From contig NZ_CP070225.1 of assembly GCF_021631985.1 (NCBI RefSeq), positions 1,240,001 to 1,304,000 on the forward strand: a DNA stretch of 64,000 nucleotides. Reading direction: 5' to 3'. A program made the position numbers and the translations under genes. A model generated the notes under the pieces. That model was not told the DNA's origin and did not search any database. It saw only the letters and a program-made list of their open reading frames with translations. This DNA is from Sandaracinus amylolyticus (GTDB taxonomy: Bacteria; Myxococcota_A; Polyangia; Polyangiales; Sandaracinaceae). Shown here piece after piece: positions 1,724-21,085 of this stretch (its first letter is position 1; every line of letters begins with the position of its first letter).

Positions 1724-3352
1724 ATGCAGGCCGTCTTCAGCGCCCGTGACGCTCTCTGGACCTGGGCCGTGCCCGTGGTCCTCGCGCTCGTGGGGCTCGT
1801 GCTCACCGTCGTCCTCCGCGCGCCCCAGCTGCTGCGCCTGCGCGAGGGCTTCCGCGCCGCGCTCGCGCAGGATCCGCGCGTCGAGGGCTCGATGCCGCCC
1901 GGCACGTCGGTGCTGCTCGGTACCGCGGCCACCTGGGGCGCCGCCGCCGCCGTCTCCGCGGCGACCGCGGTCGCGCTCGGCGGGCCCGGCGCCATCGCGT
2001 GGCTCTGGCTCTTCGGGCTCCTGATCGCGCCGCTCCGCTACGCCGAGGTCGTGCTCGCGCGCACTGCGCCGCCCGGCAAGGCCGGACAGGACGCGCACGG
2101 CAGCCTCGCCACGCGCCTCGCGAACGACTCCGCGCCCGCGCTCCGCGCGCTCGGGCTCGCGCTCGTCGTGCTCGTGCCGCTCGCCGCGTTCGCGTTCGTC
2201 GGCGGCGCGCACGGCGGCGCCGCGAGCGATGCCGCGGGCCAGCTCCTGCCGGGCAGCGAGACCTACGTCGGCATCGCCGTCGCGATCGTCGCCGCGCTCG
2301 CCGTGCTCCCCGCGCTCGGTCGCCCCGCGACGATGCCCGCGCAGGCGTCGGCCGTGATCGGCTGGCTCGCGCTCGCCGCGCTCGCCGCGCTCTTCGGCGT
2401 CGCGTTCGCCGCGCTCCTCCAGGATCCGGCGCGCGGCCTCGGCGCGATCCCGCGCGCGCTCGACGACGTGTTCTCGGGCGCCGAGAACGTCGGCGCGTTC
2501 TCCGGCGCGATGGTCGGCGAGATCGCCGGCGCCGCGCTCATCCACGTGCTCCCGCCGCTCGCCGCCACCACCGGCGTCGACGGCGCGATCCACGCCGCCG
2601 CGCGCGCGCCGACCACCCGCGGTCAGGCCGCGGCCGCGCTCTTCGGCCCGCTGATCCACGTCGTGCTCGCGACCATGCTCGCCTGCGCGTTCGTCGCGAC
2701 CGGCGCGTTCCATCGCCGCGTCGAGGGCTCGCGCGCGCTCGACGAGATCACGTTCTGGCGCTCCGGCTTCGACACCGTGAGCCAGCGCCGCGAGACCGAT
2801 CGCACCTTCACCGGCACGCTGCGCGTGATCGACGGCGGCGTGCTCGCGCGCCCGCTCGAGCTCGCGACCGAGCGCGGCATGATCACCGACCCCCGCTACG
2901 TCGGCGAGGACGGTCAGCCCGGCGACTTCGCGCTGCGCATCACCGACGGCCGCATCACCGCGCTGCTCGTCCCCGACGACGACGGCACGCTGCGCCAGGT
3001 CGAGCTCGCGCGCACGAGCCGCATCCGCGTGGAAGGCACGATGCTCCCGCGCGGCGGCACCCTCGTCGCGTCGGCGATGATGCGCGGTGGAGGCGACGTC
3101 GCGTCGCGCATCGCGCTCACCGCGCTGCTCCTGCTCGCGGCGCTCGGTGCCGCAGGGTGGGGCGTCGCCGCGGCGCGCAGCGTCCCGCGCGCGCTCGCGG
3201 TGCCCGCGGCGTTCCTGCCCGCGCTCGGCCTGCTCCTCGCGGCGACCGGCGTCGCGCCCTGGCTCGCGCCGGTCGGCTCGATCGTCGGAGCGCTGCTCGG
3301 GCTCGTCGCGGCGATCGGCGTGGTCGCGAAGGTCCGCGAGCTACGCGCCTGA
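1724..3352 (+). CDS. AGCS-like (sodium/alanine symporter family) membrane protein
   Basis: A 542-residue polytopic inner-membrane protein. After a first membrane helix (about residues 8-30) comes LLRLREGFRAAL and then GTAATWGAAAAVSAATAVA followed by GGPGAIAWLWLFG. This matches the conserved core of the alanine/glycine:cation symporter family, where GGPGAiFWMW is a signature. Several further hydrophobic segments follow. A stretch of about 110 residues near 330-440 is soluble and beta-rich in appearance, which is unusual for the family, and two to three more helices close the protein. The family imports small amino acids with sodium, but the divergence leaves substrate and even transport activity open. 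ATG 1724 starts directly before the first helix; no good ribosome binding site is visible. The 3' end overlaps the convergent gene by 12 bases. Confidence 0.7.
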   Translation: MQAVFSARDALWTWAVPVVLALVGLVLTVVLRAPQLLRLREGFRAALAQDPRVEGSMPPGTSVLLGTAATWGAAAAVSAATAVALGGPGAIAWLWLFGLLIAPLRYAEVVLARTAPPGKAGQDAHGSLATRLANDSAPALRALGLALVVLVPLAAFAFVGGAHGGAASDAAGQLLPGSETYVGIAVAIVAALAVLPALGRPATMPAQASAVIGWLALAALAALFGVAFAALLQDPARGLGAIPRALDDVFSGAENVGAFSGAMVGEIAGAALIHVLPPLAATTGVDGAIHAAARAPTTRGQAAAALFGPLIHVVLATMLACAFVATGAFHRRVEGSRALDEITFWRSGFDTVSQRRETDRTFTGTLRVIDGGVLARPLELATERGMITDPRYVGEDGQPGDFALRITDGRITALLVPDDDGTLRQVELARTSRIRVEGTMLPRGGTLVASAMMRGGGDVASRIALTALLLLAALGAAGWGVAAARSVPRALAVPAAFLPALGLLLAATGVAPWLAPVGSIVGALLGLVAAIGVVAKVRELRA

Positions 3353-4711
3353 GTCGGGCGCCCCACCGTCGAGCCGCCCGCGAGGCACGATCACGCGCAC
3401 CGTGCGCTCCACGAGATCGAGCCCGTCGCCCACGATGCGCACCGACACGCGGAACACCTGCTCGTAGTCGGCGGGCGGCACGGTCGAGTTCTGCAGCACG
3501 AGCTCGAAGCGCACCGACGTCCCCGGCCGCACGCCGGCGAAGGTGTCGGCGATCCCGTCGCCGCTCGGCCGGCGATCCTCCCGCGTGGGCGGCGCCGCGC
3601 CGCCCTCCACACGCGCCTCGATCGCCGCGACCGCCCGCACGAAGCCGAGCCCCGCGTCGTCGGTCTCGCCCCACACCTCGTTCCACTGCACGGTGTCGAG
3701 CAGATCGCCGATCGCATCGACCAGCGTCGACGAGAGCCCGCTCCCGTCGGGCTCGACGTCGAACACCAGCGGGCACGTGCCGTCGACCGTGTCCCGCAGC
3801 GCGCCCTCGATCCCCGTCGAGCAGCGCCCGTCGATCGGCGGCACCACCGCGCCGGTGCGCACCGCGAGCTGCTCGAGCTCGCCCCGCGGCGAGGGCCCCG
3901 ACGCGATCCCGATCACACGCGCCTCGATCGCGCGCAGCGCCTCCGCGGCCTGCGCCAGCGATCGTGTGCCCGGGAAGACCACCTCGTAGTCGCCGGGCTG
4001 ATGGCTCGGCGCGTCGGTCACGTGCACCACCACGCGCAGCGCACCCTGGCGGAACCCCGCGCCCCCCACCTCGCCGCCGCCCGGCGCGCTGCGATCGCGG
4101 AACGGCGCGACCAGCGCGCGCCCGTCGTGCGTGTAGCCCTCGCCGGTCGCGATCTGCCAGAGCGCCTCCGCGCCCGACTCCGGCTGGTCCCCGCCGTCCC
4201 CGAGGGGCGCGTCGAGCGACGCCAGCGCCGATCCCACCCGCGCGCGATCGGTCGTGATCGCCGTCACGAGCTGGAACGGACGATCGCTCTCGGTCCCGAA
4301 CGGCGCGGCGGGGAAGTCCTCGAAGCGCCCGACCCCGACCGCCACGCTCGGCACCCGCGCCGCGAGCGTGGGCACCACGCCGTCGATCAGATCGCGCTGG
4401 AGCGCGTCGATCTCCCCCTCGAAGCTGCCCGTCGTGTCGATCGACAGGAACACGTCGAGCGTGCCCAGGTCCGCTCCGATCTCGAGCGGCACGCGCGCCT
4501 CGGGCCCGCCGTAGGGCAGGGTGATCTCGAGATCTGCCGGGGGAAGCCGCGGTCCCCCGTCGGGCCGCCGGTACCCGCCGTCGATCTGCTCGACATCGCC
4601 GCCGTCCGGCCCGCGTGGGCCCGAGTCCCGCGTCGGCACCGCGGGCGCGCGCTCCTCGCAGCCCAGCAGCGCGAGGGCTCCCACGACGCACGCCGTCGTA
4701 CGCCATCGCAT
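3341..4711 (-). CDS. VWA-domain lipoprotein
   Basis: A 456-residue predicted lipoprotein. The N-terminus is a short signal with lipobox LLGC, followed by an Asp/Gly/Pro-rich linker typical of myxobacterial surface lipoproteins. The central part is a von Willebrand factor A-like domain: VFLSIDTTGSFEGEIDAL gives a MIDAS-like D-x-T-G-S, and a later VVVHVTDAPSH strand fits the fold. Such domains mediate metal-dependent protein adhesion. The C-terminal portion (WNEVWGETDDAG onward) resembles an all-beta domain. ATG 4711 is chosen because it sits immediately before the hydrophobic signal; the frame stays open far upstream without protein-like features. It is divergent from the FHA gene and overlaps the transporter gene tail to tail. 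Confidence 0.8.
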   Translation of the reverse strand: MRWRTTACVVGALALLGCEERAPAVPTRDSGPRGPDGGDVEQIDGGYRRPDGGPRLPPADLEITLPYGGPEARVPLEIGADLGTLDVFLSIDTTGSFEGEIDALQRDLIDGVVPTLAARVPSVAVGVGRFEDFPAAPFGTESDRPFQLVTAITTDRARVGSALASLDAPLGDGGDQPESGAEALWQIATGEGYTHDGRALVAPFRDRSAPGGGEVGGAGFRQGALRVVVHVTDAPSHQPGDYEVVFPGTRSLAQAAEALRAIEARVIGIASGPSPRGELEQLAVRTGAVVPPIDGRCSTGIEGALRDTVDGTCPLVFDVEPDGSGLSSTLVDAIGDLLDTVQWNEVWGETDDAGLGFVRAVAAIEARVEGGAAPPTREDRRPSGDGIADTFAGVRPGTSVRFELVLQNSTVPPADYEQVFRVSVRIVGDGLDLVERTVRVIVPRGRLDGGAPDSGA

Positions 4712-4867: not shown

Positions 4868-6685
4868 ATGTACAAACTCGTCATCGCCGACGACGAAGGT
4901 AAGACGACCGTCGTCCCGCTGGTTCGTGACGAGATCACGATCGGCCGCAAGGAAGGCAATACGATTCGCCTGACCGAGCGGAACATCTCGCGTCGTCACG
5001 CGAAGCTCCGTAAGGCCAACGGCTCGTACCTCGTCGAGGACCTTTCCTCCTACAACGGCGTCAAGGTCAACGGCCGTCGCATCGGGAACGAGGCGACGCT
5101 CAAGGCCGGCGATCAGATCTCGATCGGCGACTACCAGCTCGCCCTGCAGCTCGACGACGGGGCGACCATCCCCGACACGACTGCGCCGATGGCCGCGCCG
5201 AACGGGGCCGCCGAGCCCGCGACGGCGATGCTCCAGTCGCCCGCGGTCGCGCCCGGTGCTCCGACGCTCCCTGCGGGCGGCGTGGGCACCCCGGCGATCG
5301 TCGTCGGTCCGCCGGCTCGCCTGGTGATGACGTCGCAGCCCGCGCCCGGCGCGGAGTTCGCGCTCGCCCGCCCGGTCACACGGATCGGCCGCGCCGAAGA
5401 GCTCGACGTGTGGATCAACCACCGCTCGATCTCGCGCGAGCACGCCGAGGTCACGAACGACGGCGGCGCGATCCGCATCAAGGATCTCGGCAGCGCGAAC
5501 GGCGTGCGCGTGAACGGGCGCGACGTGCAGCAGGCCGAGCTCAAGCCGGGCGACACGCTCGAGCTCGGGCAGGTGCGCTTCCGCTTCGTCGGCCCCGGCG
5601 AGCAGTTCGTCTTCGACGCCGCGCACACGATGCAGCTCGAGGCGGCCTCGCCCGATCGCGCGCCGAGCCGCGCGCCGATCTTCGTCGCGGCCGGCATCGT
5701 CGGCCTCGCGGTCGTGGGCGCGGTGGTGGTCGCGATCTCGGGCGGACAGCCCGCGTCGACCACCGCGACGCCGATCACCGAGCCGGTGAGCCCCAGCGTG
5801 CCCGCGGTGCACGGCGATCCCAGCACGAGCCCCGCGCTCGTCGCCGGCCCCTCGCCCGAGGAGCGCGTCGCCGCGGCGGTCGCCGCCTGCGTCGCCGCGC
5901 GCAACGGCGGCAACTTCGATCTCGCGCTCCAGCGCGCGGGCGAGGCGCTCGCGATCCTTCCTTCCGACGCGCGGGCCCTCGATTGTCAGGCGGGCGCGCA
6001 GCAGGATCGCGAGGAGTCCGACGCGTTCGCGCGCGGCGTCGCGCTGCGCAACCAGGGCAACCTTGAGGGCGCCTACCTCGAGTTCGACGCGCTCCCGCCC
6101 CAGAGCCCGTTCCGCACCCGGCCCGAGGTCGAGCAGACGATGCGCGACTTCGCCGACGCGACGCTCGAGCAGGCGCAGGACCAGCTCACCGAGGATCCCG
6201 AGGAAGCGCTGCGCCTCGCGCACACGGTCCTCAACATGGCCCAGCTCGAGCCCGCGACCCGTCGCGCCGCGGATGCGATCGCCCGTCGTGCCCGCCCGCG
6301 CGTCGCGGGCCGCGAGCGCCCCGTCACGCCGCCTCGTGATCGCGAGCCCCGCGATCCCCGAGGCACCAGCGGCGCGGTCACGGGTCGCGACTCCGGCACC
6401 TCGAGCAGCACCACCGTGACGCCGACGCCGACGCCCGAGTCGTCGGGCCAGACCCCGCTCGCCGCGGCGCGCGCATGTCTCGCGCGCGGCGACAACCAGT
6501 GCGCGGTGCGCGCGCTCGAGGGCCGCTCGCGCACGACCGACGAGTACCGACTGCTCGTCGAGACCTACCGCGCGATGGGCAACACGGGTCGCATGCTCGA
6601 CACGATGGAGCGCTACATCCAGCGCTTCCCCAGCGATCCGCGCACCCAGCAGTACCGCCAGATCCTGCTGCAGCACGGCCGCTGA
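4868..6685 (+). CDS. Double FHA-domain membrane protein with C-terminal TPR-like region
   Basis: A 605-residue protein. Two forkhead-associated domains bind phosphothreonine. The first (about residues 20-90) has IGRKEGN, SRRH (41-44) and SYNGVKVNG; the second (about 165-235) has RIGRAEELDV, SISREH and GSANGVRVNG. A single membrane helix follows near 272-292, so the FHA domains are cytoplasmic and the C-terminal half is probably periplasmic. That half looks like helical TPR-type repeats, with an Arg/Pro/Thr-rich linker and a final repeat ending in IQRFPSDPRTQQYRQIL. FHA proteins commonly read out Ser/Thr kinases, one of which lies at 48185-49489 in this window, but a link is only inference. 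ATG 4868 begins the first FHA strand; in-frame GTG 4847 is the alternative. Confidence 0.88.
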   Translation: MYKLVIADDEGKTTVVPLVRDEITIGRKEGNTIRLTERNISRRHAKLRKANGSYLVEDLSSYNGVKVNGRRIGNEATLKAGDQISIGDYQLALQLDDGATIPDTTAPMAAPNGAAEPATAMLQSPAVAPGAPTLPAGGVGTPAIVVGPPARLVMTSQPAPGAEFALARPVTRIGRAEELDVWINHRSISREHAEVTNDGGAIRIKDLGSANGVRVNGRDVQQAELKPGDTLELGQVRFRFVGPGEQFVFDAAHTMQLEAASPDRAPSRAPIFVAAGIVGLAVVGAVVVAISGGQPASTTATPITEPVSPSVPAVHGDPSTSPALVAGPSPEERVAAAVAACVAARNGGNFDLALQRAGEALAILPSDARALDCQAGAQQDREESDAFARGVALRNQGNLEGAYLEFDALPPQSPFRTRPEVEQTMRDFADATLEQAQDQLTEDPEEALRLAHTVLNMAQLEPATRRAADAIARRARPRVAGRERPVTPPRDREPRDPRGTSGAVTGRDSGTSSSTTVTPTPTPESSGQTPLAAARACLARGDNQCAVRALEGRSRTTDEYRLLVETYRAMGNTGRMLDTMERYIQRFPSDPRTQQYRQILLQHGR

Positions 6686-6889
6686 GTTTCCCCGGGGGGC
6701 TGCGCGCCCCCTGTCGACCCCCGAGCTGCGCGCGGGTCCCCACCCGCTTGCGAGCGCTCGGCGGCCCGATCGTCGATCTGCGCGGGCGGCCCGCGCGCGC
6801 TGTGATCGGGCCCTCGCCGCAGCGGCGCGAATCGTCCGCCGCTGTGCGCGTTCTGCGCGGTTTCACACGCGAAAACGGGCGACTCTTCG

Positions 6890-6918
6890 TTGACTCCGTC
6901 AAGGTCGTGCGCGAACAT
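6890..6918 (+). promoter_or_regulatory. Possible promoter for ompA-like gene
   Basis: TTGACT at 6890-6895 is a near-consensus -35. It is followed after 17 bases by GAACAT (6913-6918), a 3/6 match to the -10. The -35 is also half of a short palindrome, TTGAC-tcc-GTCAA. It lies about 50 bases before the start codons at 6963-6972. Confidence 0.35.
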
Positions 6919-6971
6919 CGCGCCGACCCGGATTTCCCCGGCTTTTTTCGGCTTCTGAGGAGATGATGCGC

Positions 6972-8999
<2,028 letters not shown>

Positions 9000-9051
9000 C
9001 CTTCTTGATCCCGCCCGGAGCAAGGGCGACACTTCGCGTCAGGAGGATGAT

Positions 9052-9074
9052 GGCCGGCTCCTTCAGAGCCGGCC
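9052..9074. terminator. Perfect 9-bp hairpin between ompA-like and DUF1232-like genes
   Basis: GGCCGGCTC (9052-9060) pairs exactly with GAGCCGGCC (9066-9074) across a 5-base loop, 53 bases after the ompA-like stop. No T-run follows. It may terminate the upstream transcript. It also ends only ten bases before ATG 9085, so it could hide that gene's ribosome binding region. Confidence 0.5.
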
Positions 9075-9084
9075 CTCCCGATCA

Positions 9085-9645
9085 ATGGCGGAGAACGGTT
9101 TCGCGGAAGCGATGCGGGAGGCGATCCTCTCGCTGCCCCAGGATCTCAAGGCGATGCTCCGGGTCATGGAGGACCCGGATCTCGATGACCAGGGGCGTGT
9201 CATCGCGAGCGGCGCGCTGCTGCACGTGCTCTCCGCGTCGAACGCGATCCCCGGCGTGAAGGGCACGCTGGCGCTCGTCGACGACGTGCTCGTGCTGCGG
9301 CTCGCGCTCGAGCGGATCGCGACGACCTCGCCCGAGGTCGTCACGCATCACCGCGAGGACGAGCCCGAGATCTTCGAGCCGTGGACGGTGCAGCTCGACG
9401 CGGCGCGCGCGTACCTCGGTGATCGCGGGGTCGCGGTGCTGCAGAAAGCAGTCGACGGGCTGCCGAAGATCACGTTCCAGGGTCACTCCGCGCGCGAGTG
9501 CGCGCGCGACCAGGACGCGGCGACCTGGCTCTACGACTCGGTGCACGAGGCGATCATCCAGCAGTTCGAGATCGCGCCCGACGAGGTCGCGCGCGCGGTG
9601 AAGAACGCGCACGAGATCCTGGCGAAGGTCTCGCAGCGGGCGTGA
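9085..9645 (+). CDS. DUF1232 (YkvA-like) family protein
   Basis: A 186-residue protein without signal peptide. The central segment GALLHVLSASNAIPGVKGTLALVDDVLVLRLALERI resembles the DUF1232/YkvA domain, whose hallmark is a hydrophobic segment with a Pro/Gly break, then (V/L)DD and a second hydrophobic helix. The rest is helical and charged. The family has no firmly established function and is usually membrane-associated. ATG 9085 opens the first predicted helix; no clear ribosome binding site precedes it, and a strong hairpin ends ten bases upstream. It is convergent with the next gene, with only six bases between the stops. Confidence 0.6.
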   Translation: MAENGFAEAMREAILSLPQDLKAMLRVMEDPDLDDQGRVIASGALLHVLSASNAIPGVKGTLALVDDVLVLRLALERIATTSPEVVTHHREDEPEIFEPWTVQLDAARAYLGDRGVAVLQKAVDGLPKITFQGHSARECARDQDAATWLYDSVHEAIIQQFEIAPDEVARAVKNAHEILAKVSQRA

Positions 9646-9651
9646 CCGCCG

Positions 9652-11337
9652 TCAGGCGGTCGCGGCGAGCGTGCTGACGCTGCGCGGCGCGGGCGCGGCT
9701 TCGATCGGGCAGGTCGCGAGCGCTTCGAGCACCGGCGCGAGCGTGCGCGCCAGGTCGGGCTCGATCGCGAGCTGACGTGCGATGCGGCGCGGCGCGCTCG
9801 CGATGCGCGCGTCGGGGAAGCGCTCCTCGAGCACACGATCGGCGGGGCTACCCTCGCGCGTGACCACGAGGAGCACCGCTTCGCTCGACCATCCGCCGCG
9901 ATCGGCGCGCGCGGCGCGCACGACGTCGAGCCGGAGCAGGCCCTTCGGCATCGCGGCGAGCACCACGCGCAGGCGCGCGTCCTGGGCCTCGCCGCGCACG
10001 TCGGTGTGGAGCACCGGACGCAGCGACCAGCGACGATCGTCCTCGAGATCGGCGCGCACCTGGGTCGCGAGCGCGAGCAGGTGCGCGAGCTCGACGTGCG
10101 CCGGTGCCGGACGGCTGCGGCGGGTGCCTCCGAGCAGCACGCTGGTCGCGAGCGCCGCGACGACGAGCGCGACGGGAAGCGGCACCGGGAGCACGCCGCG
10201 CGACCACGCGATCAGCGGCGCCGCGATCACCACGCCGAGGATCGTCGCGCCGGGCACGGTCGTGGGATCGAGGAGATCGAGCCGCGACGCGCGCAGCGCG
10301 CGACGAGCGCGCGTGTGATCGCCGGTCGTCGTCGGGCGGAACGAGCCGAGGCGCGGCGCGCGCGGCGGCTGCGCGCGACGATGGATCGCGCACACCGCGA
10401 CGATGCCCAGCAGCACGAGCGCGATCTCGATGTGCTCCTGGAGCAGCGCCGCCGCCGTCGCGAGCACGATGATCAGCCCCGCACGCGCACCGACTCCGAG
10501 CGGCACCAGCGCGCTCGGAGGCACCCGCGCATCGCGCTCGGCGCGCGCGACGACCAGCGACTTCGCGAGCGCGATCACCGCGAGCGCCAGCGCGAGCAGC
10601 GGCACGCCGATCGGCGTGCTCGGTGCGTCCATCGGCGGCGCGGGGCGCGCCCGGCGCGGCGTGGTGCTCGGCACGTGCAGCGAGGCGTCCATGCGCCCGG
10701 CGGGCAGCGCGAGCGTCACGACCCACTCGCGCGTCCGCGGCAGGTGCACGCGATGGAAGACCACGCGCGTGCCCGTCGCGCTCGGGCCGTGCGTCACCTC
10801 GACGGCGGGATCGTCCTCGTCGCGCACCGGCGTCGCGCCCTCGGGCGCATCGAGCGTGATCGCGACGTCGTCGAGCCCGTAACGCCAGCCGGGCAGCACC
10901 CAGCGCACCAGCACGGTGCCGTCCTCGCGCACCTCGGTCGCGCGGTGCGCGAGCGACGTGCGGTACACGACGGTCGCCACGTAGTCGCCGCGCCGCGGGG
11001 CGCTGCGACGACGGAACCCGAACACCACGCGCCCCTCGCCCTCGACGTCGATGCGCGGCTCGAGCAGCACGCCCTCGGTGTCGCGGAAGCTCGCGCGCTC
11101 GGGCTGCAGCTCGAGATCGGGATCGAGCCCGTCGAGCTCGAACGACTGCAGCCATCCGCCGTCGACGCGCACCTGCGCGACGAGCTCCACCTCGGCGCTC
11201 GCGTCGGGCGCGATCGTCACGTGCGCGGACACGCTGCGCACCGTCGCGTCGGTCCACGCGCGCGCCGCGCGCGGGCACACGAGCACGCCGAGGATCAGAG
11301 CGAGCGAGACGCCGGCTCGCACGAGCGGACGGACCAC
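9652..11337 (-). CDS. Exported/membrane protein of unknown function
   Basis: A 561-residue protein. A signal peptide (ending near RAARAW) is followed by about 190 residues of beta-rich extracytoplasmic sequence (VSAHVTIAPDASAEVELVAQ onward). Then come one helix near residues 235-260, a helical pair at about 285-330, another pair near 375-410, and a soluble C-terminal tail. An extracytoplasmic beta domain followed by several helices is reminiscent of DUF2207-type membrane proteins, but I see no decisive motif. The start is GTG 11337. It is the last gene of a minus-strand run, 43 bases after the site-2 protease gene, so probably cotranscribed with it. Confidence 0.65.
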   Translation of the reverse strand: MVRPLVRAGVSLALILGVLVCPRAARAWTDATVRSVSAHVTIAPDASAEVELVAQVRVDGGWLQSFELDGLDPDLELQPERASFRDTEGVLLEPRIDVEGEGRVVFGFRRRSAPRRGDYVATVVYRTSLAHRATEVREDGTVLVRWVLPGWRYGLDDVAITLDAPEGATPVRDEDDPAVEVTHGPSATGTRVVFHRVHLPRTREWVVTLALPAGRMDASLHVPSTTPRRARPAPPMDAPSTPIGVPLLALALAVIALAKSLVVARAERDARVPPSALVPLGVGARAGLIIVLATAAALLQEHIEIALVLLGIVAVCAIHRRAQPPRAPRLGSFRPTTTGDHTRARRALRASRLDLLDPTTVPGATILGVVIAAPLIAWSRGVLPVPLPVALVVAALATSVLLGGTRRSRPAPAHVELAHLLALATQVRADLEDDRRWSLRPVLHTDVRGEAQDARLRVVLAAMPKGLLRLDVVRAARADRGGWSSEAVLLVVTREGSPADRVLEERFPDARIASAPRRIARQLAIEPDLARTLAPVLEALATCPIEAAPAPRSVSTLAATA

Positions 11338-14599: not shown

Positions 14600-15850
14600 A
14601 TGGTGGGGTACGGACGGCTCGGGACACTCGCGTGCGTGGTGGCGCTCCTCGGCAGCGTGGGCTGCGGTGATTCGCGGACCATCGACGACACCGACGCGGC
14701 GATCGTGATCAACCTCGACGGCGCGATGATCGACGCCGGGCAGGACGGGGGCCCGCCCAGCAACATCGGCGGCGCGTGCGCGGAGGACACCGACTGCACC
14801 GGCAGCGCGAACCGCTGCATCGCGGAGCCGGACTACTTCCCGGGCGGCTACTGCACGCTCGCCTGCAGCAGCGACGAAGAGTGCCCCGAGGGCTCCTACT
14901 GCTCCGACGTCTTCGGCAGCCAGGCGTTCTGCGTCGACTCGTGCGACGCGGCGGGGACCGACGAGTGCCGCGCCGGCTACGGCTGCACCATCGACGACCC
15001 GATGTACCCGATGCCGTTCTGCCTCGGCGGCTGCGAGGAGGACACCGACTGCCCGGACAGCCTCAAGTGCGATCCGGACGGCGGTGACCTCGGCGAGGGC
15101 AGCTGCTACGACGAGACCGCGAGCATCGGCGACGCGTGCGAGGACGGGACGAGCTGCCCGATGAGCGCGTACTGCCTGGCCGAGTCGTTCGGCGGGTGGC
15201 CCTCGGGCTCGTGCGTCGCGCTCGGGTGTGATCCCGCCGCGAGCGGCACCTGCGGCACCGACGCCCACTGTCTCCCCAGCGCGGGCGGCGGCGGCGGCCT
15301 CTGCGTCGACGCGTGCGCGGCCGACACCGACTGCCGCGCCGGCTACGTGTGCCGCGGCACCAGCACGTTCCCCGAGCGCCTGACCTGCCAAGCCGCGTGC
15401 AGCGACGCGGACTGCACCGGGGGTCGGGTGTGCAACGAGATCCTCGGCACCTGCCACGCTCCCTTCCCGGACGGCCAGCTCGGCCAGACCTGCTCGCGCT
15501 TCAGCGGCGGCTGTACGGGGGGCGTCTGCTACAGCGAGGGCCAGTACGGCTATCCGGGCGCGTACTGCGCGTTCGAGGGCTGCAACGTCGGCGACGACAC
15601 CACGTGCCCGGACAACGGGGTGTGCATCGCGGCGACCGAAGAGGGCGAGCCCAACGTCTGCTTCAAGCGCTGCGCCGCCAGCACCGACTGCCGGGAGGGC
15701 TACACCTGCCGCGACGTCGACGGCGAGGGCGAGGGCACGGTCGGCGCCTGCACCCCTCAGTGCACCGCGAACGACCAGTGCGCGAACGCGGATCGCGGCT
15801 TCACCTGCGATGTCGCGAGCGGACTCTGCGTGCGCCCCGCCGGGGGCTGA
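14600..15850 (+). CDS. Cysteine-rich lipoprotein with repeated EGF-like/TNFR-like modules
   Basis: A 416-residue lipoprotein: signal LACVVALLGSVGC ends in a lipobox, followed by a short Asp-rich linker. The rest is a chain of six to eight disulphide-rich modules. They are built on a recurrent pattern (C-x-x-D-x-D-C followed by x-G-x-x-C and a C-x-x-x-C pair), for example CAEDTDC, CSSDEEC, CEEDTDC, CAADTDC and CAASTDC. This is a common layout for myxobacterial surface proteins of unknown role, probably extracellular and possibly calcium- or ligand-binding. ATG 14600 is preceded by a GA-rich stretch (gacgaggg). A promoter-like pair at 14517-14545 and a terminator-like hairpin after the stop suggest a single-gene transcript. 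Confidence 0.75.
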   Translation: MVGYGRLGTLACVVALLGSVGCGDSRTIDDTDAAIVINLDGAMIDAGQDGGPPSNIGGACAEDTDCTGSANRCIAEPDYFPGGYCTLACSSDEECPEGSYCSDVFGSQAFCVDSCDAAGTDECRAGYGCTIDDPMYPMPFCLGGCEEDTDCPDSLKCDPDGGDLGEGSCYDETASIGDACEDGTSCPMSAYCLAESFGGWPSGSCVALGCDPAASGTCGTDAHCLPSAGGGGGLCVDACAADTDCRAGYVCRGTSTFPERLTCQAACSDADCTGGRVCNEILGTCHAPFPDGQLGQTCSRFSGGCTGGVCYSEGQYGYPGAYCAFEGCNVGDDTTCPDNGVCIAATEEGEPNVCFKRCAASTDCREGYTCRDVDGEGEGTVGACTPQCTANDQCANADRGFTCDVASGLCVRPAGG

Positions 15851-15872
15851 GCGTCGCGCCGACTCGGATCGC

Positions 15873-15915
15873 GAAGGAGGCCGGGCCGCTCACTGCGGCT
15901 CGGCCTTCCTCGTTT
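15873..15915 (+). terminator. Rho-independent-type terminator after the Cys-rich lipoprotein gene
   Basis: The segment aaggaggccgggccg pairs with cggctcggccttcct across a short loop (ctcactg), with G-U pairs and one A-C mismatch. The pyrimidine-rich tail cgtttc follows. It begins 22 bases after the stop at 15850. Confidence 0.65.
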
Positions 15916-15993: not shown

Positions 15994-16740
15994 ATGGCTC
16001 GTTCGCTCACCGCCACCGACGTCGTCCAGCTGCCCACGCTCAGCGCCGAGGACGCCTACACACTCGTCTCGCAGTTGCTGCACCAGGCCTCGCGGGCGCC
16101 GGCGCCCGCCTCGCTCGAGGAGCTCGTCATCGAGCTCGCATCGAGGCACTCGACGCTCCAGTCGCAGCTCGTCGCGCGCCGCGCGAAGCCCGGGGTCGAC
16201 ACCAAGATCGCGGTCGAGGCGGATCGCGCCGTCGACACCGCGTGGTCGGCGCTGCGCGACTGGCTCTCGGGCTGGGTGAAGCTCGGCGCGGCGGTGCCGC
16301 GCGCGACCGAGATCGCCGAGCTCGACTCGTTCCTGTTCGCCGACGGCCTCTCCTTCCTCACGTACCGCTTCGAGGCGGAGTGGGCCGAGTCCGAGACGCG
16401 CCTGACCGCGCTGCGCGCTCGCCGCAACGAGGAGCTGGTGCGCGCGCTCGGCGGCGCGCCGTTCCTCGACGTGCTCTTCGCGGCGCACGCGAGGTACGGC
16501 GAGGCGCTCGGCGTCGCCGGCGACACCGCGCCCGCCCCCAGCGATGCGAAGATCGGCGAGTCGCGCGACGCGATGCTCGACGCGCTCCGCGAGTACGTGG
16601 TCGCCGTGCTCGGCACCGTGCGTCGCAGCCGCCCCGCGACCTCCGAGCGCGCCGACCAGTTGCTCCGTCCGCTCGCCGAGTGGGAGGCGCGCCCGCGCAC
16701 GCCTGCTGCGCCCGGCGAGAAGCCCACGCCGACGACCTGA
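15994..16740 (+). CDS. Hypothetical helical protein
   Basis: A 248-residue soluble protein with no signal peptide, membrane helix or recognised domain. It is predicted largely alpha-helical (LEELVIELASRHSTLQSQLV, RFEAEWAESETRLTALRARR) with a flexible Pro/Thr-rich C-terminus. ATG 15994 is well supported by AGGAGG six bases upstream. The preceding terminator and the composition change downstream suggest it is transcribed alone. No function can be assigned. Confidence 0.65.
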   Translation: MARSLTATDVVQLPTLSAEDAYTLVSQLLHQASRAPAPASLEELVIELASRHSTLQSQLVARRAKPGVDTKIAVEADRAVDTAWSALRDWLSGWVKLGAAVPRATEIAELDSFLFADGLSFLTYRFEAEWAESETRLTALRARRNEELVRALGGAPFLDVLFAAHARYGEALGVAGDTAPAPSDAKIGESRDAMLDALREYVVAVLGTVRRSRPATSERADQLLRPLAEWEARPRTPAAPGEKPTPTT

Positions 16741-16760
16741 ACGACCTCCGACGGGCGCGC

Positions 16761-16883
16761 GAGGCAGATCGATCGCCGTCGCTTGGGGTGCCGAGGCCCC
16801 GATGACGCAGGTCGAACTGCCTCCGACTACCCCGCGGGGTGATTCGAGGCAGATCGAAGTGCCGTGCTTGGGGTGTCCAGGCC
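16761..16883. repeat. Two 38-bp imperfect direct repeats upstream of nuclease/STAND gene
   Basis: Copy 1 (16761-16798) and copy 2 (16846-16883) share gaggcagatcga at the start, gcttggggtg in the middle and aggcc at the end, 85 bases apart. They lie between the stop at 16740 and the start at 16991. They could be duplicated regulator sites or a duplication left by insertion of the neighbouring gene. Confidence 0.65.
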
Positions 16884-16990
16884 GCACTTGGGCAGATGGA
16901 TCTCCCTGGTTGTGGCCTGCACGCCCCAATGGGCCCGCGTCCGACGAGCGGGCCGGTCGCGATTCAACCTGCAAGACTCCTGCGACCGCC

Positions 16991-19900
16991 ATGACGCTGC
17001 GATGGGATGCGATCACCTCCGGCGAGACATTCCAGAGCCTCGCTGCCCAGATCGTCCGTCGCGTGGACGCACACGCGCACGTCTTCACGTGGCCCGGACC
17101 CGACGGCGGCCAGGACGCGAGGTCAGGCGACGGCGAGACGGTTTACCAGGCGAAGCACCATGCTCGGCCAGAGGCGAGGCACCCGCGTGAAGACGCGCTG
17201 AAGGAGCTTTCGAAGATCCGGGCGTACCGCGAGCCCACCCACCCGCGGCATCCGCAGTGGGCGTCGGTGCGGCGGTGGGTCCTGCTGACGAACGTCGCGA
17301 CGCAGGCCACGGAGGCGGAACGGTGGGACCGCGAGGTCGTCCCTGCATTCACGCGGGAAGGCCTCAACGTTGAGCTTTGGGGGGCGGAACGGCTCGAACA
17401 ACACGTCAGCGAGTTCCCGGCCCTCAAGCGCGCGTTCTTCGACGGCGAGACCCGCGCGTTCATCTCGCTCGGCGAAGCGTTGCACTACGCGCGCACGAGC
17501 GACCCGGCCGCACACGAGGGCGAGCTCCCGACGTTCCGGGGCCGCGACGAGCTCGTGACAGAGATCGTCGCGCGCTTCGCGACCGCACCGATCGTGCCCC
17601 TCGTCGCGCCAGCTGGTGTCGGGTCGAGCCGGCTTGCGCTGGCGGTCGCGATCGAGGCCGTCACCGCGGGTGTGGTACCAGCAGTCTACTTCGCGAATCC
17701 CGCGAACCTGGCAGCGGACACGCGCTGGTACGAGGCGTTCGTACCGGATCAGCCGATGCTCGTGGTGCTCGACGAGCTCGACGAGAACGACGGCCTGCGG
17801 AGCGTGAAGCGCATCCTGGAGGAGATGCGGACGCGCGCTCCTATGTGGAAGCTGCTCGTCGTCACGAAGACGCATCAGCAGCATCTGCGTACTGCGGTGT
17901 TCGTGCGCGCCGCCGACACGCTCGAGGTTCCGCCGCTGCAGGAAGATGCGACCGCGTCGTTAATCGACGAGATCGTGCGGCGGCGGGTTCCTGCGAACGC
18001 CCTTCTCGAGCGCCAGCTTGGCCGCGTCGCGCGAGCGGTCGCTCACGACTCCGAAGGATTCCCGGCGTGGGCGGTGTTGTCGGCGCTCACCGTGGCGAGT
18101 GGCGGGAGTCTCTCGCGTGTTCCGGGGTCACGTCGTGAGCAGGTCCAGACATACCTCCACACGATCCGCGAGCGCGTCTCTCGCGAGATGTCGAGCGGTC
18201 CGGCGGTCGTGCGTGTGCTCCGGGCGGTCGCCGCGCTCGGAACGCTCGATGCGCAGAGGGACGGGCACTCGTCGTGGGTCCGCGAGATGGCGAACGGGAT
18301 CTCCTCCGAGCAGCTGCGCGAGATCCTCGAAGCGCTCGAGCGCCTACGCGTCGTGCGACGGCGGGGCGTGAACCGCCGGCTGTGGTCAGTCGTACCTGCG
18401 GTGCTGTCCGACGCAGTTCTCGCGGAGTGGCTGACGGACGACGCCCGAACGCTCGCGCCGAACGCAAATGCGCTCGATCTCGTGACGTGGCTGCGGGAAG
18501 CGATCGCAAGCGGGCCGAATCCGCAGAGCCCAGTTGTGCCAGTGCTCCGAAGACTCGCACGCATGGCGTTCGTCGGAGCCGAGCACGCGCAGCCGATCTC
18601 CCACGCCATTCGCGGTCTGTTTCGAGATGCACGGGCGCGTGGCGAACAGGCGCTCGATCTCGAGTGGGTCATCGATCTTGCCGAGAACATCGCGCACTCG
18701 ATGCCCGGCATCGCGGTCGACCTCGCGCTTCACGTGCTTCGTGGCGGTACGTCGAACGAGAACATGCGCGTGCGATCGCGCGTTCCGTGGTTGCTCTTCC
18801 ACGCCGCCTGCGGTGCTCGAACAAGCGACGAGCGTCGAGAGGTCGTCGGCGCGCTCGAGCGCGCCGCCCACGCCGAAGCTCGTAGTCCGACTCGGAACGA
18901 GCAGGACGGCAAATCGGCTCCGCGCGTGATCAAGCGCATCCTGGATTCGATCGACGAGGTGGTCAGCGACTTCACCCTGGAGTTCGAAGCGATGATCGCG
19001 GCGATGCTCGCCGGCATGCCGCCCGACCCTGCACGCATCGACTCCGCCGCGTGGTTCATCGAGCCGCTCGTTCACGCGGAAGGTTTCACCACGCACTTCG
19101 AGCGCGACACATTCCACTACGGAACCTACCGCGTGCACCCCGAGAGCGAGCGCGCGAAGGCTCGGTGGCGAGTGCTCGATCGGCTGTGGGGGATCCTGGA
19201 GCACGAGCCCAGCAGTCCGTGGCGCCCGCTCGCATGGCGCATGCTCATCGCGAGCCGGAGCGCGATGCTGTTCGGGAGCGACGATCCACGAGATCGAACG
19301 CGCGCGCACCTACAACGCGCGGTCGGAATCCTGACTGCGCACCAAGCGCTCGGACTGGATGAGCTCCGCGCCGCGCGACGGACGTGGTCGTGGCATCTGG
19401 AGTACGGCGACGAGCCCGCGGAGAAGGCGCTCGCGGAGCAGTGCGAGGCGCACTACGTGCGAGCGGTCCGTGCAGACCCGGCCACGAACATTCTCCTCGG
19501 CGACGAGTTCCAGGCGGACTTGGAACCGGTTCGGACGGGCTCGGCGATCGACGTTGCGCAGATGTTCGCCGCGATTCTCGACGCGGCCGAGCGTCTCGAC
19601 GACGACTTCGCGTGGGCACGCGCCAGGAGGATCGCGGACTACGTGGGTGGTCTCCCTCGGGCCGAGTGTCGAGAGGCGTGGTTCCTGATTTCTCCGAGGG
19701 CGCACGCGGGCCCCCGGCATGCGGGCGTCGTGACCGAGTACCTCGGCGGCGTGCTCAGTGCGGCGCGACGGACGGGCGATCGGGCGATCGTGGATCTCTG
19801 GCGCGACGTGGATCTGCGAGCATCCGCGCTCGCGGTCGCGTCCAGAGCCGCGCTGTACGGCAACCGGCTCACGGTGGCCGCGGAGTTGGTCCAGGAAGAC

Positions 19901-20824
19901 CTCGCGTCGTTCAGCGAACGAGTAAGCGAGCTCGCGGCAAGCTATCCCCTCGAGACGTTCAGCGCGCTCGGCAGAATGGTGCGTTTGGGGTGCGCAGCCA
20001 ACCAACTGGTCGCGGACGCGTGGCTCGCGACGTCGGACGCAGTGCGAGCCCGCTGTTTCGCTGCGCTCGTCGAGGGGACGTATTCCGCGATCGCAACGGA
20101 CGAGACGGCTCGCACGTCCGCTCTGTCGACCTGGCTTCTCGACCAACTGGTGGAGGTGCCCGATCCGGACCACGTGTTCTCGGGGGCGAGCGACTGGCAT
20201 CTCGAGCAGGTTCTCGCGAAATGCGGGAGGCCCAGCGTGGAATGGGTGGCGACGTTCTTGGCCCAGCGCGCAGAGCGGTACGATCCCGATGGACACACGT
20301 ACGACGTGGTGCCCTACACGACGCCGCTTCACCACTTCGTCGACGTCACGGTCGTCGACCCGACCATCCTCACCACGGTGTTTCGGTACGTGGTCGGCGA
20401 GGCTCTCGTTCCGAAGTGGCTCTCTGCACTCGATCCATCCCGGAGCACGCTCATCGAGTTGATGGCCGCGGAGATTGATGCCGCCCGGACCCGGCCTGAA
20501 CAGCTTGCGCGAGCAGCTCGGTGGGCGCTCTGCTTTGTCGAGAACGGCGCCGAGTGGCGGCGCCTGGCCCAGAGGGCCGCTGGACACGCGTCCGCGTTCC
20601 CGAGCGACGACCGGGATCGCGTGTATCGGCAGATGGTTGACCGTCATCGCCTCTACACGAGCAAGTCGGGCGAGATCTCGCCCGCTCGTCTGCAGGAGCT
20701 GCGCGAGGCGCAGACTCGCCTGGACGAGGAACAGGACCCCGCGCTGCGCGACTACTGGCGCTGGCGATTGGAAGATGTGCGCGCGTCGATTGAGTACGAC
20801 CGCCAGGCTCTTGAAGAGCGCTAG
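16991..20824 (+). CDS. Mrr-like nuclease / STAND-like NTPase fusion, candidate anti-phage effector
   Basis: A 1277-residue soluble protein. Residues about 8-150 look like a PD-(D/E)xK Mrr/restriction-like domain: Glu12 in the first helix, GPDGGQD (Asp42) and VYQAKH (Gln53, Lys55). An NTPase-like module follows, with entry motif TFRGRDELV (181-189), P-loop position APAGVGSSR (206-214) and Walker B VVLDELDE (258-265). The P-loop lacks the catalytic Lys (normally GKT/GKS), so nucleotide binding may be weak or lost. The remaining ~900 residues are helical, as in STAND sensor domains. Nuclease plus STAND plus long sensor resembles the Avs-type phage-sensing architecture (inference). Codon use is less GC3-biased than neighbours and includes a TTA leucine, a sign of transfer. 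ATG 16991 precedes the nuclease helix; ATG 16802 is in frame but its extension is not protein-like. Confidence 0.78.
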   Translation: MTLRWDAITSGETFQSLAAQIVRRVDAHAHVFTWPGPDGGQDARSGDGETVYQAKHHARPEARHPREDALKELSKIRAYREPTHPRHPQWASVRRWVLLTNVATQATEAERWDREVVPAFTREGLNVELWGAERLEQHVSEFPALKRAFFDGETRAFISLGEALHYARTSDPAAHEGELPTFRGRDELVTEIVARFATAPIVPLVAPAGVGSSRLALAVAIEAVTAGVVPAVYFANPANLAADTRWYEAFVPDQPMLVVLDELDENDGLRSVKRILEEMRTRAPMWKLLVVTKTHQQHLRTAVFVRAADTLEVPPLQEDATASLIDEIVRRRVPANALLERQLGRVARAVAHDSEGFPAWAVLSALTVASGGSLSRVPGSRREQVQTYLHTIRERVSREMSSGPAVVRVLRAVAALGTLDAQRDGHSSWVREMANGISSEQLREILEALERLRVVRRRGVNRRLWSVVPAVLSDAVLAEWLTDDARTLAPNANALDLVTWLREAIASGPNPQSPVVPVLRRLARMAFVGAEHAQPISHAIRGLFRDARARGEQALDLEWVIDLAENIAHSMPGIAVDLALHVLRGGTSNENMRVRSRVPWLLFHAACGARTSDERREVVGALERAAHAEARSPTRNEQDGKSAPRVIKRILDSIDEVVSDFTLEFEAMIAAMLAGMPPDPARIDSAAWFIEPLVHAEGFTTHFERDTFHYGTYRVHPESERAKARWRVLDRLWGILEHEPSSPWRPLAWRMLIASRSAMLFGSDDPRDRTRAHLQRAVGILTAHQALGLDELRAARRTWSWHLEYGDEPAEKALAEQCEAHYVRAVRADPATNILLGDEFQADLEPVRTGSAIDVAQMFAAILDAAERLDDDFAWARARRIADYVGGLPRAECREAWFLISPRAHAGPRHAGVVTEYLGGVLSAARRTGDRAIVDLWRDVDLRASALAVASRAALYGNRLTVAAELVQEDLASFSERVSELAASYPLETFSALGRMVRLGCAANQLVADAWLATSDAVRARCFAALVEGTYSAIATDETARTSALSTWLLDQLVEVPDPDHVFSGASDWHLEQVLAKCGRPSVEWVATFLAQRAERYDPDGHTYDVVPYTTPLHHFVDVTVVDPTILTTVFRYVVGEALVPKWLSALDPSRSTLIELMAAEIDAARTRPEQLARAARWALCFVENGAEWRRLAQRAAGHASAFPSDDRDRVYRQMVDRHRLYTSKSGEISPARLQELREAQTRLDEEQDPALRDYWRWRLEDVRASIEYDRQALEER

Positions 20825-20873
20825 GCAGCGACGGCCTGCAATTCGGCCGCGATGCCCGAAGGGCGAGCCGGTC

Positions 20874-20918
20874 CGCGTGAGGACGCGAGCCCGCGAAGCG
20901 GACTCGCGTCGTCACGCG
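20874..20918. terminator. 16-bp stem-loop after the nuclease/STAND gene
   Basis: cgcgtgaggacgcgag (20874-20889) pairs with ctcgcgtcgtcacgcg (20903-20918), 15 of 16 positions matching, with a 13-base loop. It starts 50 bases after the stop codon. There is no T-tract, so a terminator role is inferred from position and stability. Confidence 0.5.
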
Positions 20919-21047
20919 TCCAGCCCACCCCACGAAGTACCGAGCGAGATCCCCCGCGCGCGGCCGAAGCCTTACCAGCCGGGGCGCGGGCAGGGGTCCC
21001 GCGCGCAGTTCCGCAGCGCCCACCAGCCTCCGCGACGCACCCGAATG

Positions 21048-21085
21048 CTCGTCGGTGCGAGGCGCGCAGCGCCTACACCGACGAG
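21048..21085. repeat. Near-perfect 38-base hairpin
   Basis: CTCGTCGGTG (21048-21057) pairs exactly with CACCGACGAG (21076-21085). An inner stem AGGCGC/GCGCCT (21060-21065 / 21069-21074) is closed by a 3-base loop, giving 16 base pairs interrupted by one small internal loop. It lies mid-intergenic, far from either gene. It could be a structured RNA element, a terminator or an extragenic palindrome. Confidence 0.6.

Follow-up and report, generated by a model that had tools for sequence, protein, structure and literature searches.

Can a nuclease joined to a STAND-type ATPase go on acting once the phosphate-binding loop (P-loop) of that ATPase has lost its lysine, or is such a gene already decaying? 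The question is raised by a gene of Sandaracinus amylolyticus found at 16991..20824, on the forward strand, of the 64,000-nucleotide stretch analysed here (contig NZ_CP070225.1, positions 1,240,001 to 1,304,000; hereafter the window). A preliminary description, made from the letters of the DNA alone, had seen in it an Mrr-like nuclease, a STAND module and a long sensor region laid out as in the Avs phage sensors, and had proposed either a family switching without ATP hydrolysis or a different nucleotide mode. Our preferred reading, to which we give a probability of about 0.47, is that the gene was acquired horizontally and belongs, without a partner and with a degenerate P-loop, to a two-gene, Avs4-like family, and that it most likely acts as a ligand- or partner-gated nuclease without canonical ATP hydrolysis. 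The open reading frame is real: it comprises 1277 codons without internal stop or frameshift, with GC contents of 0.73/0.50/0.81 at the three codon positions, a bias that persists along the whole length. The start at 16991 matches the alignment of the homologues; an in-frame ATG exists at 16544, and the homologues show no alignment upstream of 16991.

The P-loop position (residues 206-214; 17606..17632) is encoded by GCG CCA GCT GGT GTC GGG TCG AGC CGG and reads APAGVGSSR, against GxxGxGK(S/T)R in the homologues. All 12 homologues covering the P-loop (loci L003, L010, L017, L018, L019, L020, L021, L022, L025, L026, L027 and L029) carry GK(T/S)R, and the lysine is lost in the window copy alone. 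Compared with the homologue majority, four conserved P-loop residues are altered (G206A, G208A, K212S and T213S); Gly209, Gly211, Arg214, Asp261, Glu262 and Pro358 are retained. Nine of the 11 homologues compared have an arginine at sensor 1, where the window copy has a lysine. Walker B reads VVLDELDE, and the annotated motif (residues 256-263, MLVVLDEL; 17756..17779) retains Asp261-Glu262; the frame, the lysine-less P-loop and the intact Walker B are thus as the preliminary description had them. A sequencing slip at the P-loop was rejected, the frame being open and two whole codons differing, as was a same-genome paralogue supplying an intact switch, since only the gene itself was matched at E values up to 10. 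Given the 12 intact motifs, a family without the lysine was also rejected and the proposal of a family switching without ATP hydrolysis has to be dropped; the data agree better with a single switch-degenerate orphan in a family whose P-loops are otherwise intact. The same description had reasoned that intact homologues would make this copy simply a decayed one: the intact motif is indeed what is found at the family level, but decay is not established, because it is mainly the NTPase module that has diverged, the nuclease being conserved.

Using the window protein as query, we detected relatives in 4 of the 192 other relative genomes (E up to 1e-5), 7 of 376 other phylum genomes, 8 of 288 other class genomes and 3 of 182 other order genomes, these sets overlapping; two further genome groups and a class search with L019 added no relatives. 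A contig search with the window protein alone yielded no relative, and a contig scan with an 11-member family set (A1) gave at least one further homologue, in Spirulina sp. CCY15215. The pattern used in that scan contained GK[TS]R and is therefore biased to intact P-loops, whereas the genome searches with the window protein are free of this bias. Among plasmids, one record was matched by the window protein and six by L017; among phage records, the window protein had no match and L017 one weak match. With A1, one partial relative appeared among viral contigs, where the Spirulina protein matched nothing. Identity between the window copy and the homologues is about 25-29% over long stretches and up to 41% over short ones, the homologues being mostly closer to one another than to the window copy. 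Two contigs of genome G021 carry one piece each, L003 and L024, perhaps of one gene; the two were kept separate. L022 (genome G118) was counted for the P-loop only: its P-loop is intact, and a TAA within the NTPase closes its frame some 170 bases short of the contig end. A copy on the mobilizable 'Nostoc azollae' plasmid pAzo01 (L038 and L068, at both record ends) has both genes broken over many frames. The window gene is unlike these two broken copies. Two haloarchaeal plasmid proteins of about 1260 residues (L053:4443-8225 and L054:4515-8282) matched the family hidden Markov model (HMM) over the STAND module and the following part, with E values of 4e-33 and 3e-29 in a five-sequence search; their nuclease region was unmatched.

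Divergence of the window copy was compared between domains at columns with at least 90% conservation in the other members, L026 (a near-duplicate of L027), L022, L023 and the Nostoc copy being omitted; the tree omits the partial L003 and L010. The window copy deviates at 2 of 35 conserved columns in the nuclease domain, 12 of 25 in the NTPase core (residues 180-330; 17528..17980), 7 of 19 in the post-NTPase part and 10 of 37 in the sensor-like C-terminal region (residues 501-1277; 18491..20821), where 27 are thus retained. The difference between nuclease and NTPase is significant (Fisher's test, p = 3e-4) and persists without the four P-loop columns (8/21 for the NTPase; p = 0.004). The nuclease shares 47% identity with that of L017 and the NTPase 22.5%, and on a fixed tree the window branch makes up 0.16 (nuclease), 0.24 (NTPase), 0.21 (post-NTPase part) and 0.15 (sensor) of the total length. 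From these alignments, uniform drift would fit such domain-specific divergence badly.

In the nuclease domain (residues 1-158; 16991..17464), Asp42, Gln53 and Lys55 occur without variation in all 13 domains aligned, and three of these domains come from plasmid proteins matching Pfam Mrr_cat. Of the active site first proposed, these three residues stand; Glu12 of the window protein does not, being unconserved among the aligned domains.

Of the 12 homologues whose 3' end is readable, eleven have a HEPN-like gene directly after them, at ten loci (L010, L017, L018, L020, L021, L024, L025, L026, L027 and L029) and, as the eleventh, at L069 of genome G354. This partner gene encodes 266-319 residues, about 270 being typical, and its ATG overlaps the upstream stop as ATGA in 10 of 10 pairs by script and, by reading of the translation, at L069 as well. 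R171, N172 and H176 are invariant in the ten aligned partners (RNxxxH), and R171-N172-x3-H176 agrees with the Rx4-6H motif given for HEPN RNases in PMC3710099. In Pfam, PADLOC and NCBIfam, no family covers the partner and no HEPN match was found, stray weak matches apart; its model, with a predicted local distance difference test (pLDDT) score of 69.4, is mostly helical, and the fold search gave no convincing match, with no HEPN entry among the matches listed. Since the profile families do not cover it and the low-confidence model has no convincing match, the name 'HEPN-like' is based on the motif and the helical composition. Downstream of the partner at L069 (G354:C179), IS66-type transposase-like frames were seen by eye on the reverse strand at about 1900-3558.

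No partner was found in the window, where its start would be expected within 20825..21054: a partner HMM run against six frames of the whole window gave no match at E values up to 10, and the partner is absent from the window's genome in a search in which genomes G054 and G021 were positive. Apart from the window copy, L019 alone has a readable 3' end and no partner, the two matches at its locus being non-significant (E 4 and 5.3) and its genome, G429, having none; the partner is also absent from G118, where the family gene is cut. As the window copy and L019 share one side of a split with weak support (77), a single partner loss in a shared lineage is possible. One might instead suppose the partner to be unrelated to the function of the homologues and its absence here to be meaningless, which is compatible with the other readings and agrees with L019 lacking it despite an intact GKT and with the unmatched fold. 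The ATGA overlap in ten pairs and an eleventh, and the finding of the partner in 7 of 377 phylum genomes, always behind the family gene, make this very unlikely. Judged from gene order and overlap, the family is probably a two-gene, translationally coupled unit and an undescribed defence system; no description of a nuclease-STAND/HEPN-like pair was found in the literature searched, which does not prove its absence from print.

How the gene reached this site is suggested by sister genome G001, which has 86-95% identity in the flanking blocks and in which about 0.7 kb lacking the gene stands in place of window positions 16698 to 20843 (4.1 kb). No homologue was found in the nine same-genus and same-family genomes listed. 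The absence of the gene at the G001 site points to a probable horizontal acquisition, a gain in the window lineage being the simplest reading. The transfer suspected earlier from codon use accords with this empty site, and the codon data themselves were confirmed: GC content at third codon positions is 0.81 in the gene vs. 0.88-0.96 in 29 of the 32 other window frames (simple open reading frame script), and the gene contains a single TTA codon. Upstream of the gene, at 16740-16960, short repeated phrases (gaggcagatcga, cttggggtg), possibly a dispersed intergenic repeat, were noticed by eye. Also adjoining the gene is a variable site, 15835-15910, which has 75 bases in the window; the sister genome carries an additional 3.5 kb there (L047, about 6558-10057), with a frame of about 700 residues, RCC1-like by eye.

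No defence gene was found among the window frames scanned. The neighbours of the homologues were scanned at ten loci through 20 chosen proteins, and restriction-modification genes adjoin two of them: L018 lies directly after Methylase_S, SLFN and HsdR-type genes, and L026 occurs with MmeI-type and helicase genes. The chosen proteins of the other eight loci included no restriction-modification genes.

The AlphaFold2 model of residues 1-520, built from an alignment of ten sequences (mean pLDDT 82.3; predicted template modelling score 0.81), has an N-terminal alpha/beta domain, a STAND core and, after it, a largely helical stretch that includes a small pair of strands. A NACHT/NB-ARC-like STAND fold is present, with a winged-helix-like part (helical stretch of residues 331-500; 17981..18490) in which Pro358-Ala-Trp360 is retained; Walker B lies on strand 257-263. 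The order of nuclease, STAND module and long C-terminal region is that of Avs4 (AVAST type 4), whose nuclease we take to be Mrr-like. The top Foldseek match in the PDB is Avs4 bound to a phage portal, the portal binding being taken from the entry title (8dgf_A; E 1.1e-8), over 554 columns with a root-mean-square deviation of 16.4 and a template modelling score of 0.29 by query, values which, for a predicted model, indicate a common domain order and not one rigid superposition. VIA-align placed NRC1, NRC2, NLRC4, Avs5 and Apaf-1 at Z 14.0-15.7 and Avs4 at Z 12.6 (root-mean-square deviation 20.5).

At the sequence level, the window protein matched Pfam nSTAND1 at E 5e-4, under the curated cut-off, and had no Mrr_cat match in Pfam, nothing in PADLOC up to E 1, nothing in NCBIfam and nothing in a PDB sequence search on its own. 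With A1, the PDB sequence search gave weak generic matches, mostly ATPases (best E 0.0048), and PADLOC gave weak matches to models other than Avs: PDC-S73 in 4 of 11 members (best 1.5e-5) and an Aga model in 5 of 11 (best 8.1e-5). No match naming Avs appeared in PDB sequences, Pfam, PADLOC or NCBIfam. The nuclease-STAND architecture and the Avs-like nature are supported by the model, and the layout first described is borne out by the Avs4 fold match, by the existence of Mrr_cat intermediates and by the two homologue loci next to restriction-modification genes.

What might such a gene do? By analogy with the Avs proteins, intact members would probably detect a phage protein through their C-terminal region; the STAND module would oligomerise on binding ATP, and the Mrr-like nuclease at the N terminus would in turn cleave DNA, with the HEPN-like gene probably as a second effector or regulator. 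In the window copy, the nucleotide switch has lost phosphate-binding residues and drifted and the nuclease has stayed constrained, for which reason we consider the copy most likely still to be acting. We infer a defence role, phage sensing, DNA cleavage and a remaining activity. A functional sensor that has lost the nucleotide switch as well as the HEPN-like partner, with a DNA nuclease gated by ligand binding alone, would be a bacterial parallel to the P-loop-independent NLRs and would descend from an undescribed two-gene nuclease-STAND/HEPN-like defence system; we propose it tentatively, at somewhat less than even odds.

Several observations weigh against a copy that still acts. In the nuclease itself, the residue after Phe14 is glutamate in 10 of 13 aligned domains and is Gln15 in the window copy (Asn in L019, Gln in L021). 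The NTPase does not differ significantly from the sensor in conserved columns (12/25 vs. 10/37; p = 0.11), and the bootstrap intervals of the branch shares (40 replicates each) just overlap, with 0.12-0.20 for the nuclease and 0.195-0.31 for the NTPase. In L019, whose P-loop reads GKT, the same bias is seen less strongly (8/24 NTPase vs. 4/36 nuclease columns changed; p = 0.05), so that part of the divergence may predate the loss of the lysine. No close relative of the window copy, against which selection could be measured, was found in the sets searched. Stop codons arise slowly in GC-rich DNA, which makes the open frame weak evidence. According to PMC12931631, Avs5 no longer confers immunity once its P-loop glycine or lysine is replaced by alanine, and the loss of the lysine here could equally mean a lost function. 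The joint loss of partner and P-loop is also the expected look of early decay.

Early-stage decay, in which the gene arrived horizontally, lost partner and P-loop and is non-functional without having yet gained a stop, is accordingly a serious possibility, although well under even odds. It draws on the lysine kept by every homologue and the four altered P-loop residues here, on the essential lysine of Avs5 (PMC12931631), on the absence of the partner from the window and its genome and on the fact that decay occurs in the family, as in L022 (with no partner in G118) and the broken Nostoc copy. However, 33 of 35 conserved columns are kept in the nuclease vs. 13 of 25 in the NTPase, where uniform drift should strike both, and 1277 codons remain free of stops and frameshifts with their codon-position bias. 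It is this constraint on the nuclease that leads us to favour a nuclease switched otherwise than by ATP over early decay, the two readings being close. That the deviant P-loop still binds nucleotide through Arg214, Ser212 or Ser213 and switches almost normally appears unlikely. The glycines, Arg214, Walker B acidic residues and Pro358 listed above are retained, the sensor-1 change from arginine to lysine is mild, the model retains strand 201-205, a loop and helix 212-225 at the P-loop position, and SAMD9-family STANDs have glycine for lysine throughout (PMC5445408); but Arg214, present in all aligned homologues, is no new substitute, and no lysine stands upstream in the P-loop of the window copy.

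The preferred reading, a nuclease gated without canonical ATP hydrolysis, can be set beside known systems. According to PMC12931631, the nucleases of Avs1-4 cleave both phage and host DNA when phage packaging proteins are sensed. Compared with Avs4, most homologues here have a HEPN-like partner, the family is unmatched by Avs sequence profiles and the P-loop of the window copy is degenerate, not Gx4GK[S/T]. In the SAMD9-family STANDs, bacterial members included, the P-loop lysine is likewise replaced (PMC5445408); there, the change to glycine is family-wide and the domain order differs, whereas here a single copy is affected. The iSTAND proteins of vWA-MoxR systems have a catalytically inactive STAND module within a bacterial conflict system (PMC7159879), although they are accompanied by vWA and MoxR genes, none of which was found among the window frames scanned. 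In plants, ADR1-L2 has P-loop-independent functions (PMC3636237). With these precedents for altered switches, the P-loop loss is unique in the family as sampled, yet has parallels elsewhere. Finally, the plasmid Mrr_cat-nSTAND3 'restriction endonuclease' proteins also have an Mrr-like nuclease followed by a STAND NTPase, with the Asp, Gln and Lys in common, but they are 756-782 residues long, too short for the long C-terminal region, and their NTPase is of nSTAND3 type.

If functional, the window gene would be an Avs-like sensor that controls a nuclease without the ATP switch essential in Avs5, with natural intact relatives for comparison. The intact family, for its part, looks like a two-effector defence unit in which a DNA nuclease and a putative RNase are translationally coupled, and this intact two-gene family may be the more valuable outcome.

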